DNA of 64,000 bases, from contig NC_015474.1 in the NCBI RefSeq assembly GCF_000211475.1, forward strand, positions 1,364,001-1,428,000, in the 5' to 3' direction. Below, piece by piece: positions 11,353-30,951 of this stretch. The position numbers and the translations under genes were made by a program. Position 1 is the stretch's first letter; every line of letters starts with the position of its first letter. The notes below the pieces were generated by a model that was not told the origin of the DNA, ran no database searches, and was given only the letters and a program-made list of their open reading frames with translations. Source of the DNA: Pyrococcus sp. NA2. GTDB taxonomy: Archaea > Methanobacteriota_B > Thermococci > Thermococcales > Thermococcaceae.

Positions 11353-11409
11353 AAGGTCAGCTATGGGCGTCCTTCATCACACCTCAGCCTTCCGACTATT
11401 CATCATCTA
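11353..11409 (-). ncRNA. C/D box guide sRNA overlapping the end of the DUF371 gene
   Basis: All four boxes are present in order on the minus strand: C box ATGATGA (11406-11400), 12-nt guide (11399-11388), D' box CTGA (11387-11384), 3-nt spacer, C' box GTGATGA (11380-11374), 13-nt guide (11373-11361), D box CTGA (11360-11357). These spacings match Pyrococcus C/D sRNAs, which bind L7Ae, Nop5 and fibrillarin to direct 2'-O-methylation. By the D+5 rule the D' guide would target the fifth base of CCTTCCGACTAT (a C), and the D guide the fifth base of CTATGGGCGTCCT (a G). The C box encodes the last Asp-Glu of the DUF371 protein, and its TAG stop lies in the first guide. RNA ends are approximate. Confidence 0.9.
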
Positions 11410-11818
11410 CAATTAGTTCAATTATTGCAACAGCATTTGGATTCTTAAGCCTTTCAATAATTCTCCTGTCTATATCTTTGGCAGCTTTATTTGCTCTTAT
11501 TGCAAGCGTTCTTCCGTCAATATATCTACTTTTCCTGATTACAATTGAAACGTCACTATCAAGGATAAGCCTTGGATCTCCCCACGCTATTATTTCATCG
11601 ACAAGTTCTTCAACCCTAATGATAATCCTTATCCTTTTTCCCTGTTTCAATGCATCCTTAATGTCTTTAGAAAGATCCCTAAGGGCTTTGTTGGCAGATA
11701 TACAAATTATACAGTCTCCCCTAGGAGTCAAAAAATTTTCCTTAGTTATTTCAAGGGTCGATTTATGGGTCGCTTTAACGTTTTCGTGTCCTTTGCACAT
11801 GATTATTTCTCGGAGCAT
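11396..11818 (-). CDS. DUF371 family conserved archaeal protein
   Basis: A 140-residue protein of the COG2090/DUF371 family, recognised by GHENVKATHKSTLE near the N-terminus and RGDCIICISANKAL near residue 33. Function unknown. The first ATG is kept because it preserves the residues preceding GHENV found in relatives; no strong SD is visible. The end of the gene doubles as the 5' part of a C/D box RNA. Upstream lies a secreted protein gene on the same strand 31 bp away. Confidence 0.82.
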   Translation of the reverse strand: MLREIIMCKGHENVKATHKSTLEITKENFLTPRGDCIICISANKALRDLSKDIKDALKQGKRIRIIIRVEELVDEIIAWGDPRLILDSDVSIVIRKSRYIDGRTLAIRANKAAKDIDRRIIERLKNPNAVAIIELIVDDE

Positions 11819-27284: not shown

Positions 27285-28442
27285 ATGAGATTTTGCTATA
27301 GATGCGGGATTAGTGAGGAGGAGGGAGGTCCTCTAATAAATGGTCTTTGCCAGGTCTGCTTTAGAAAAGAAAATCCAATTTTGGTCATTCCTACTGAAAT
27401 AAATACTGAGTTGTGTCAAAATTGTGGGAGCTATAAGAAGAGAGGGGTTTGGGTTGATCCAAAGAATTACGAACTCGAGGCCTTGATATTTGAGGTTGCT
27501 GAAAATGCCCTAGTTGAGGCCATAGAAGATAACTTGAAAGTTAAGGAATTTGAGATAGTTGAATGGGACGAATTGGATGAGATAGAGGATATTCCAGTAA
27601 ACAAGGCCTTTGTTGCCTTTAGGGTTGCAGATTACCATATAGAATACTTTCCGGCTATAGTCATTTATGAGGTCAGGGCAAAGGGAAGAATACATGAGCT
27701 CCAAGTTGAGCCTCATGATGAAACTGTCGTGACTACAGTTTACGTTAGACAAACGGTCTGTCCTAGATGTCAAAAGTTCTTAGCTGGTTACTATGAGGCC
27801 ATACTCCAGGTGAGAGTTGAAGATAGGGAATTTACGAAAGAGGAGAGAGAAGAGATCACTAAACTAGTCCAGGAGAAAGTTGATGAGATAATGAAAAGAG
27901 ATAGAATGGGCTTCATACAGGACACAATAGAGAAGGAAGAGGGAATAGACTTCTACATGGGTTCGACCAGTGCTGCAAGGAAGCTGGCGAATGCAATTAG
28001 GGAAAGGTTTGGAGGAACAATAAGTGAAGCATACGAGCTAGTTGGACTTGACAGAATGACTAGTAAGGAGGTTTATAGAACCAGCGTGACTATAAGACTT
28101 CCAAAGTTCAGGAAGGGAGATGTCGTTGAAGATAGGAGAGGAAAAGTGTACCTGGTTGAGAGTGTAGATGGAAAGGGGATGAGGCTTAAAGACCTTGAAA
28201 CATGGAAAAGTGAGCATTACGATTGGAAGACTATAAAGAGAGAGAAGGTTGATCTTGCAAATTACGAGGAGAAAAAGGCAATGCTTGTAAGTAAAACTCC
28301 ATCAGAACTTCAATTTATGGACATGGAAACTTATGAGACTTTTGAGGTATCAAAGCCAAGCGATGAGCTTAAAGAGGGGGAAGTTTACAGCATAGTGAAA
28401 GTTAAGGGAAGGATGTATGTCAAGGGGAGGGAAGGAGAATGA
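27285..28442 (+). CDS. NMD3 homologue, ribosome-associated protein
   Basis: A 385-residue archaeal NMD3 relative. In eukaryotes NMD3 is the 60S export adaptor; in archaea it is presumed to act in large-subunit assembly or quality control. The N-terminus has zinc-binding CxxC pairs (CYRCG, CQVCF, CQNCG, CPRCQ), then the conserved VTTVYVRQTVCPRC and the DFYMGSTSAARKLAN segment. It lacks the eukaryotic C-terminal nuclear shuttling tail. The stop overlaps the start of cutA as ATGA. Confidence 0.9.
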   Translation: MRFCYRCGISEEEGGPLINGLCQVCFRKENPILVIPTEINTELCQNCGSYKKRGVWVDPKNYELEALIFEVAENALVEAIEDNLKVKEFEIVEWDELDEIEDIPVNKAFVAFRVADYHIEYFPAIVIYEVRAKGRIHELQVEPHDETVVTTVYVRQTVCPRCQKFLAGYYEAILQVRVEDREFTKEEREEITKLVQEKVDEIMKRDRMGFIQDTIEKEEGIDFYMGSTSAARKLANAIRERFGGTISEAYELVGLDRMTSKEVYRTSVTIRLPKFRKGDVVEDRRGKVYLVESVDGKGMRLKDLETWKSEHYDWKTIKREKVDLANYEEKKAMLVSKTPSELQFMDMETYETFEVSKPSDELKEGEVYSIVKVKGRMYVKGREGE

Positions 28443-28747
28443 TAATAGTTTACACGACATTTCCTGATTGGGATAGTGCTGAAAAAGTCACGAAAAAGCT
28501 TTTAGAAGAGAGATTAATAGCATGCGCAAACTTAAGGGAGCATAAAGCTTTTTATTGGTGGCAAGGGAAGATAGAAGAGGACAGAGAAATCGGAGCAATC
28601 TTCAAGACAAGAGAAGAACTTTGGGAGGAAGTTAAAGAAAGAATAAAGGAACTTCACCCATACACCGTTCCGGCGATAATAAGAATTGATGTCAAAGATG
28701 TCAATGAGGATTACCTGAAGTGGTTGATTGAGGAAACTAAAAAATGA
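28439..28747 (+). CDS. cutA: CutA1 divalent-cation tolerance protein
   Basis: A 102-residue CutA1 protein that forms extremely stable trimers and binds divalent metals such as Cu2+. It shows the family-defining TTFPDWDSAEKV, RLIACANL, YWWQGKIEED and TVPAIIRIDV. The sequence is close to, but distinct from, what I remember of P. horikoshii CutA1. Translationally coupled to nmd3. The last codons, including the TGA stop, form the C box of a downstream C/D box RNA. Confidence 0.96.
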   Translation: MIIVYTTFPDWDSAEKVTKKLLEERLIACANLREHKAFYWWQGKIEEDREIGAIFKTREELWEEVKERIKELHPYTVPAIIRIDVKDVNEDYLKWLIEETKK

Positions 28748-28797
28748 TGAATACGGGGCCACCTGAGTGGTGATGATGTTTCTCCCATGGCTGATTA
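28744..28797 (+). ncRNA. C/D box guide sRNA between cutA and metG
   Basis: All boxes are present in order: C box ATGATGA (28744-28750), 12-nt guide (28751-28762), D' box CTGA (28763-28766), 3-nt spacer GTG, C' box GTGATGA (28770-28776), 14-nt guide (28777-28790), D box CTGA (28791-28794). It directs 2'-O-methylation with L7Ae, Nop5 and fibrillarin. By the D+5 rule the D' guide would methylate the fifth base of GTGGCCCCGTAT (a C), and the D guide the fifth base of CCATGGGAGAAACA (a G). The first TGA of the C box is the cutA stop, and the convergent metG stop codon begins right after the D box, so the RNA fills the whole intergenic space. Ends approximate. Confidence 0.92.
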
Positions 28798-30951
28798 CCT
28801 AATTTTTGCTCCAAGTTTCACATCTTTATCTGGCATCAATAGTGCAACCTTCTCCCCGTCGTCAGCAGCCAAAAGCATTCCTTGGCTCTCTATTCCTCTC
28901 AACTTCTTTGGTTCTAGATTAGCAACGACGATAACGTACCTGTTAAGCAGCTCCTCCTTCGTATAATACTTCTTTAGTCCTGCAACTAGCGTTCTTACTT
29001 CATCTCCAAGATCCACCTTCACCACGTACAGCTTGTCGGCATTTGGATGATCTTTGACTTCAATTATCTTCCCAACCCTCAGATCGAGCTTTGCAAACTC
29101 CTCGAACTTCACGTACTTACCTTTCTCTTCTCCTCCTAACCTTAAGTCTTTATAAACTCTCTTTAGAATTGTCTCAGCTTCCTCACCAAACTTCTCCTTT
29201 GCAACTTTTATTACCTCTTCTCTCTTGTAATATTTGTCAAGCAGTACTCTAGCTCCCTCTGGGTTCCCCCTGGCCATGTAATTTAAGATGAAGTATATTA
29301 TCTGATCATCTGTTACCTTCTTGAATAGTATCTCGGCTTTCCTTACTCTATGCCCTGGTTCTATCTCCTTAAACTCCCATCTCTTGACTTCTTCGAGGTT
29401 GAGAAGGTGCCATATCTTCTCACTTGCATCTGGAAGGAACGGCTCTAAGAGTATTCCAAGGGCCTTAACTATCTGGAGGGAGATGTTGACTGTTGTGGCG
29501 GTCTTCTCTCTATCTTCTTTGGCGGTTTTCCATGGCTGTTTGTGATCAAAGTACTTGTTTCCAAAGGATGCTAAGTTCATGACCTTCTTGAGCGCATCCT
29601 TAAAGCGGTAATTCATTATTAACTCTCCAACTTCTTCAAACGTCTTCTTAATCTCGTTTAGTGCTTCTTTGTCAAGTTCATCAAGTTCTCCCCTTTCTGG
29701 AACAACACCATCGAAGTATCTGTTAACGAAGGTCATTGCTCTGTGAACGAAGTTACCTAAGTTGTTTACTAGCTCCTCATTGATTCTTACCTTGAAGTCT
29801 GCAAAGCTGAAGTCTGAATCCCTCGTTTCGGGCATTATCGTTGTAAGGTAATATCTAAGGTAATCAGCGGGCCACACTTCAAGGAATTCATGAACCCAGA
29901 TTGCCCAGTTTCTACTTGTTGAGAACTTTCTGCCTTCTAAGGTTAGATACTCATTGGCTGGAATATCATAGGGTAGATTCCACTCAGCTTCGACCTCATT
30001 ATCCTTGTATTTCCCGTATGCCATCAAGAAGGCTGGCCAAAATATCGCATGGAATGGAATGTTGTCCTTTCCTATGAAGTGGATAACCCTAGTCTGGCCA
30101 TCTAAATTTAGCCAGTACTTCTTCCACTCATTGGGTTTCCCTATCCTCCTAAAGTATTCAATTGTTATACTTATGTATCCAATTGGAGCCTCAAACCAGA
30201 CGTATAGAACCTTATCTTTCATCTCCTCTAATGGAACGGGAATTCCCCAATTAAGATCTCTTGTTATTGCTCTCTCCTCCAGTCCCTCCTCTATCCAACT
30301 TAAAACCATGTTCTTAACGTTTGGCTTCCAATGCTGATTTTCTATCCACCTCTTTAGTCTTTCAGCGAAGTCTTGCATTTTTATATAATAATGAGCAGAA
30401 TCTCTAAATGAAATTGGTCTTCCACAGATGGCACACCTTGGATTTATCAATATCTCTGGAGTTAATGGCCTTCCACAAACCTCACATTGATCCCCTTTCT
30501 GATCTTCAGCCCCACAGTATGGACATGTTCCAATAACGAACCTATCGGGCAGGAACATTTTGTCATGCTCACAATAGGCCTGTTTTGTGACCTTTTTTAC
30601 TAAGTGACCATTTTCTAGTGCTTTAAGGAAGAATTCCTGGCTCAATTTATAGTGAATTGGGAGTTCAGTTCTTCCAAAGAAGTCAAAGCTTATCTTTGCC
30701 CTCTGGAAGGTTATCTTTATATGTTCGTGAAATTCATCAACGATCTCCCTTGGGCTCTTACCTTCCTTCAGTGCTCTAAATGAGATGGGTGTCCCATGTT
30801 CGTCTGTACCGCAAATGAAAACAACATCCTCCCCTTTAAGTCTCAAATACCTTACAAAGATGTCGGCAGGTAAGTATGCCCCCGCTAGATGTCCTGCATG
30901 GATTGGACCATTAGCATATGGTAAGGCCGAGGTAACCATGTAGCGAACCAT
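28795..30951 (-). CDS. metG: Methionyl-tRNA synthetase with C-terminal tRNA-binding domain
   Basis: Class I synthetase of 718 residues. The HIGH-type motif is in NGPIHAGHLAGAY at residues 14-26, zinc knuckles CPYCG, CEVCG and CAICG lie between about 140 and 175, and the KMSKS-type loop reads KFSTSRN near 338. The C-terminal 110 residues form an EMAP-II/Trbp111-like tRNA-binding domain (LDLRVGKIIEVKDHPNADKL). SD GGAGGTGG precedes the ATG. Convergent with cutA, separated only by a C/D box RNA. Confidence 0.97.
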   Translation of the reverse strand: MVRYMVTSALPYANGPIHAGHLAGAYLPADIFVRYLRLKGEDVVFICGTDEHGTPISFRALKEGKSPREIVDEFHEHIKITFQRAKISFDFFGRTELPIHYKLSQEFFLKALENGHLVKKVTKQAYCEHDKMFLPDRFVIGTCPYCGAEDQKGDQCEVCGRPLTPEILINPRCAICGRPISFRDSAHYYIKMQDFAERLKRWIENQHWKPNVKNMVLSWIEEGLEERAITRDLNWGIPVPLEEMKDKVLYVWFEAPIGYISITIEYFRRIGKPNEWKKYWLNLDGQTRVIHFIGKDNIPFHAIFWPAFLMAYGKYKDNEVEAEWNLPYDIPANEYLTLEGRKFSTSRNWAIWVHEFLEVWPADYLRYYLTTIMPETRDSDFSFADFKVRINEELVNNLGNFVHRAMTFVNRYFDGVVPERGELDELDKEALNEIKKTFEEVGELIMNYRFKDALKKVMNLASFGNKYFDHKQPWKTAKEDREKTATTVNISLQIVKALGILLEPFLPDASEKIWHLLNLEEVKRWEFKEIEPGHRVRKAEILFKKVTDDQIIYFILNYMARGNPEGARVLLDKYYKREEVIKVAKEKFGEEAETILKRVYKDLRLGGEEKGKYVKFEEFAKLDLRVGKIIEVKDHPNADKLYVVKVDLGDEVRTLVAGLKKYYTKEELLNRYVIVVANLEPKKLRGIESQGMLLAADDGEKVALLMPDKDVKLGAKIR

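Follow-up and report, generated by a model that had tools for sequence, protein, structure and literature searches.

Between cutA and the convergent gene metG, the genome of Pyrococcus sp. NA2 has a gap of 47 bp in which C/D box motifs run up to the stop codons on both sides. Does this gap encode a guide RNA, what would that RNA modify, and how would it be made? We addressed these questions in a 64,000-nucleotide stretch of the genome around the gap (the window; Table 1) and in related genomes.

The cutA-metG gap is filled by sR35

An earlier note on this DNA had claimed that a C/D box guide RNA fills the whole gap, reusing the cutA TGA stop in its C box and meeting the metG stop right after its D box, and all of this is borne out. 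The sequence matches the Rfam family sR35, a Pyrococcus C/D box sRNA, above the 60-bit gathering threshold, both in the window (E = 3.7e-17) and in a search of the whole genome (63.3 bits; 1.86 Mb, single contig). The match extends by a few bases into the ORF on either side, and the metG ORF ends at 28795-28797 (TTA on the plus strand). The boxes have the order that defines archaeal C/D box sRNAs, namely C (RTGATGA), D' (CTGA), C' (RTGATGA), and D (CTGA), with guides of 12 and 14 nt and a spacer of 3 nt, and the D' guide, directly upstream of the D' box, is complementary to 23S rRNA. Length, boxes, and both guides equal those of the Rfam family; a few bases differ from the model consensus, two of them in the D guide (28777 and 28788). 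At the level of sequence, sR35 is confirmed as a genuine, already catalogued C/D box guide RNA and does not represent a new kind of RNA.

Table 1. Features of the sR35 locus and the second C/D box RNA of the window (positions are those of the window).
Feature	Position	Strand	Basis
sR30 (RF01134), only other C/D RNA found in the window	11355-11410	-	Rfam
NMD3-family gene, 4-bp overlap with cutA start	27285-28442	+	ORF; Pfam PF04981, E = 1.9e-53
cutA (CutA1 family), presumed carrier of sR35 at its 3' end	28439-28747	+	ORF; Pfam PF03091, E = 2.1e-35
sR35 C/D box guide RNA, whole Rfam match	28740-28796	+	RF01123, 77.1 bits (gathering score 60)
C box ATGATGA, holding cutA stop TGA (28745-28747)	28744-28750	+	sequence, ORF list
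D' guide ATACGGGGCCAC, predicted target 23S C1846	28751-28762	+	complementarity, conservation
D' box CTGA	28763-28766	+	sequence, Rfam alignment
3-nt D'-C' loop (compact spacing)	28767-28769	+	sequence; relatives 3-4 nt
C' box GTGATGA	28770-28776	+	sequence, Rfam alignment
D guide TGTTTCTCCCATGG, weak candidate target 23S G1858	28777-28790	+	target scan
D box CTGA	28791-28794	+	sequence, Rfam alignment
metG, convergent; stop adjoins D box	28795-30951	-	ORF; Pfam PF09334, E = 3.4e-160

The overlap of the NMD3 gene with the start of cutA makes it probable that NMD3, cutA, and sR35 form one transcript, which we infer from this gene arrangement. Nine nucleotides past the D box, inside the 3' end of metG, lies a T5 run (28803-28807) at which the sense transcript could end. 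This run is not kept in two relatives with the same gene order. The NMD3-cutA pair itself is present in 9/9 Pyrococcus genomes; in the other genera examined, no NMD3 gene turned up within about 1.5 kb of cutA.

The D' guide is predicted to target 23S rRNA

In C/D guides, the fifth-nucleotide rule sets the target base. The D' guide forms 10 contiguous Watson-Crick pairs (guide positions 2-11) with 23S rRNA positions 1843-1852, and by this rule the predicted target is 2'-O-methylation of C1846 (23S CTGGCCCCGTAA, aligned to about E. coli 1683). Ten pairs were reached by 1.5% of shuffled guides against 16S and 23S rRNA, which is moderately significant when taken alone. A 9-nt core of the D' guide, TACGGGGCC, is invariant in 15/15 orthologues while the loop and the D guide vary; in two orthologues from a second genus, g5, the base next to this core is changed and a G-U pair replaces the A-U pair. 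On the sequence side, the earlier note had staked its reading on a guide that is conserved and matches a stable RNA, and the D' guide is both.

The 23S target sequence is intact in the sampled genomes that carry sR35. It is also intact in genomes without sR35 (the Pyrococcus genome G011 and genomes of g3 and g4), so the site alone does not determine whether the guide is present. In one g2 genome the site is changed. A scan of the D guide against 16S rRNA, 23S rRNA, and tRNAs found nothing above shuffled controls, which means that, of the two guide matches anticipated in rRNA or tRNA, the D' match stands and the D match does not exceed chance. Some first-pass rRNA matches were located in the flanks of rRNA loci and were dropped. 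RiboMeth-seq data of P. furiosus are deposited as GSE153501 (PMC7758197).

sR35 is conserved in two genera at different loci

Among 94 Thermococcales genomes, true sR35 is present in 8/9 Pyrococcus genomes and in 7/7 genomes of g5. A strict D'-guide pattern had no matches outside these two genera in the 94 genomes, and reversed-pattern controls gave zero; the Pyrococcus copy in G007, the C box of which is ATGAGGA, misses this pattern. RF01123 matches in 86/94 genomes at first suggest a broad conservation, which we rejected: the weak matches (about 20-34 bits) mostly span positions 4-44, and with the sequence GATGATGAGTCTGGAGCCCCCTGA they resemble sR23. An sRNA of T. kodakarensis named Tko-sR35 (PMC9014305) was likewise left out as an orthologue, as numbering differs between schemes.

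All eight Pyrococcus copies follow cutA, and their C boxes either contain the cutA stop or begin no more than 1 nt after it. Only the present genome, G006, and G008 have the stop within the C box; in the other five (G004, G005, G007, G009, and G010) it ends at most 1 nt before the C box. metG is the convergent neighbour only here and in G004 and G006. The comparison of the cutA-metG gap proposed in the earlier note therefore has a divided outcome: the RNA is conserved, but the tight fit between these two genes is common to only three of the eight sR35-bearing Pyrococcus genomes, and conservation does not extend to the gap itself. G011, the ninth Pyrococcus genome, retains the NMD3-cutA pair and has no sR35. 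The examined cutA loci of g3, g4, and g5 also have no sR35, and there cutA runs straight into another conserved ORF.

In g5, sR35 is flanked by an aldo-keto reductase gene and an RNA-ligase gene (Pfam RNA_ligase plus the Pab1020 C-terminal region), and about 30-33 nt before the C box all 7 orthologues carry TTTATTAA or CTTATTAA. The guide RNA is thus conserved while its apparent mode of expression differs, being cutA-linked in Pyrococcus and seemingly dependent on its own TATA-like element in g5.

The gene directly downstream of sR35 in these g5 loci (L009 and L012-L017, around position 1500) encodes an ATP-dependent RNA ligase of the Pab1020 family. The ATP-dependent RNA ligase TK1545 of T. 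kodakarensis is needed for circularisation of C/D sRNAs (PMC9014305). The regions upstream of RNA-ligase genes in nine genomes of g1 (Pyrococcus), g2, g3, g4, and g6 contain no C/D pattern.

Overlap with a stop codon is ordinary

The layout of sR35 is an ordinary one, already described for many archaeal guide RNAs. According to a passage of PMC7994747 that cites Tripp et al. 2017, 25% of archaeal C/D genes overlap the 3' end of an ORF, almost half of those have the stop in the C box, and most archaeal C/D sRNAs are trimmed from longer transcripts. The earlier note suggested that mRNA 3' ends give rise to some Pyrococcus guide RNAs; by the account of PMC7994747, this is the accepted view for archaea rather than a discovery. 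With the sRNAs described there sR35 shares the stop inside the C box and the presumed processing from mRNA; it differs in that a convergent gene also ends at its D box and no spare intergenic DNA is left.

The genome of Pyrococcus sp. NA2 fits this pattern. In 14 of its 36 matches to RF00095 (snoPyro_CD), a subset of all C/D RNAs, an ORF stop on the same strand falls in or shortly before the RNA (ORFs of at least 90 aa; stop between 12 nt upstream and 5 nt past the RNA), compared with 4.6% of random positions at the same loci. Seven of the 36 have a TGA stop at RNA positions 6-8, the same C-box register as in sR35. The double layout recurs at 714474-714529 and 701248-701303 of the same genome, where the C box also contains a TGA stop in sense orientation and a convergent ORF terminates at the D box (positions 54-56).

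A second stop-overlapping case had been proposed near 11353 of the window. The RNA found there, sR30, does overlap an ORF stop, as sR35 does, but this stop is a TAG at RNA positions 12-14, just past the C box, and not a TGA inside it. The C box of sR30 is therefore coding sequence and supplies the last codons of that ORF.

Expression route and alternative readings

We are highly confident that sR35 is a Pyrococcus C/D guide RNA with a D' guide directed at 23S C1846, and that it is most likely promoterless and released from the 3' end of the NMD3-cutA mRNA. Together with L7Ae, Nop5, and fibrillarin it would assemble into a C/D sRNP, the proteins of which would shield the C/D body while nucleases trim the remaining transcript; the D' guide would then pair with 23S rRNA and direct the 2'-O-methylation of C1846. 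Part of this reading had been anticipated as the lack of a separate promoter and terminator. For the promoter this agrees with what we found, as the best TATA-like match upstream of sR35 in this genome has 5 of 8 positions of a crude consensus, whereas for the terminator the T5 run inside metG leaves the claim uncertain.

The same upstream region speaks against a weak promoter of sR35's own inside the 3' coding region of cutA, from which a genuine sR35 would be transcribed independently of the cutA mRNA. By the same crude consensus, the region about 20-45 nt upstream contains no good TATA-like element in 7/8 Pyrococcus orthologues, where the best candidates match at 4-6 of 8 positions, and most archaeal C/D sRNAs have no promoter of their own, with only about 20% of the genes possessing one according to PMC7994747. 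The g5 orthologues, which are apparently promoter-driven, indicate that the gene can work in this way, and G004 has an AT-rich candidate, ATTATTTA, with 7 of 8 matches; even so, we consider such a promoter improbable in the present genome. That there is no RNA at all, and that TGATGA and CTGA merely recur by chance as stop-like motifs at two convergent gene ends, has a negligible probability. Box-like words are indeed enriched at gene ends because C and D boxes contain TGA, but the full C-D'-C'-D pattern occurs twice in the window (sR35 and 11357) and never in 50 shuffled windows, the Rfam E-value is far too low for a chance match, and the guide is conserved in two genera at unrelated loci, with the g5 copy away from any cutA stop.

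A further reading concerns the D guide, which could also direct methylation of 23S G1858, 12 nt away from C1846; sR35 would then be a double guide for two linked positions. GGGAGAA at 23S 1858-1864 matches D guide positions 5-11 and is the most suggestive candidate, and double guides with linked target sites have been described (PMC7994747). Seven contiguous pairs, however, are reached by 75% of shuffles of this genome's guide, and the D guide differs in the g5 orthologues, which makes methylation of G1858 a doubtful, if possible, second function.

Implications

The NMD3 family is linked to ribosome biogenesis. Release of sR35 would remove the cutA stop, and it is conceivable, although we regard it as a long shot, that each transcript would serve either as NMD3/CutA mRNA or as a 23S methylation guide, which would tie their expression together; in g5, sR35 would be uncoupled, driven by a promoter of its own next to the RNA-ligase gene. 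The most useful addition made here is the contrast between cutA-linked and apparently promoter-driven orthologues, which provides a clean natural pair in which the production of C/D RNAs can be tested. With the same guide at the 3' end of a gene in Pyrococcus and behind a TATA-like element in g5, selection appears to keep the RNA and not the gap between the genes.
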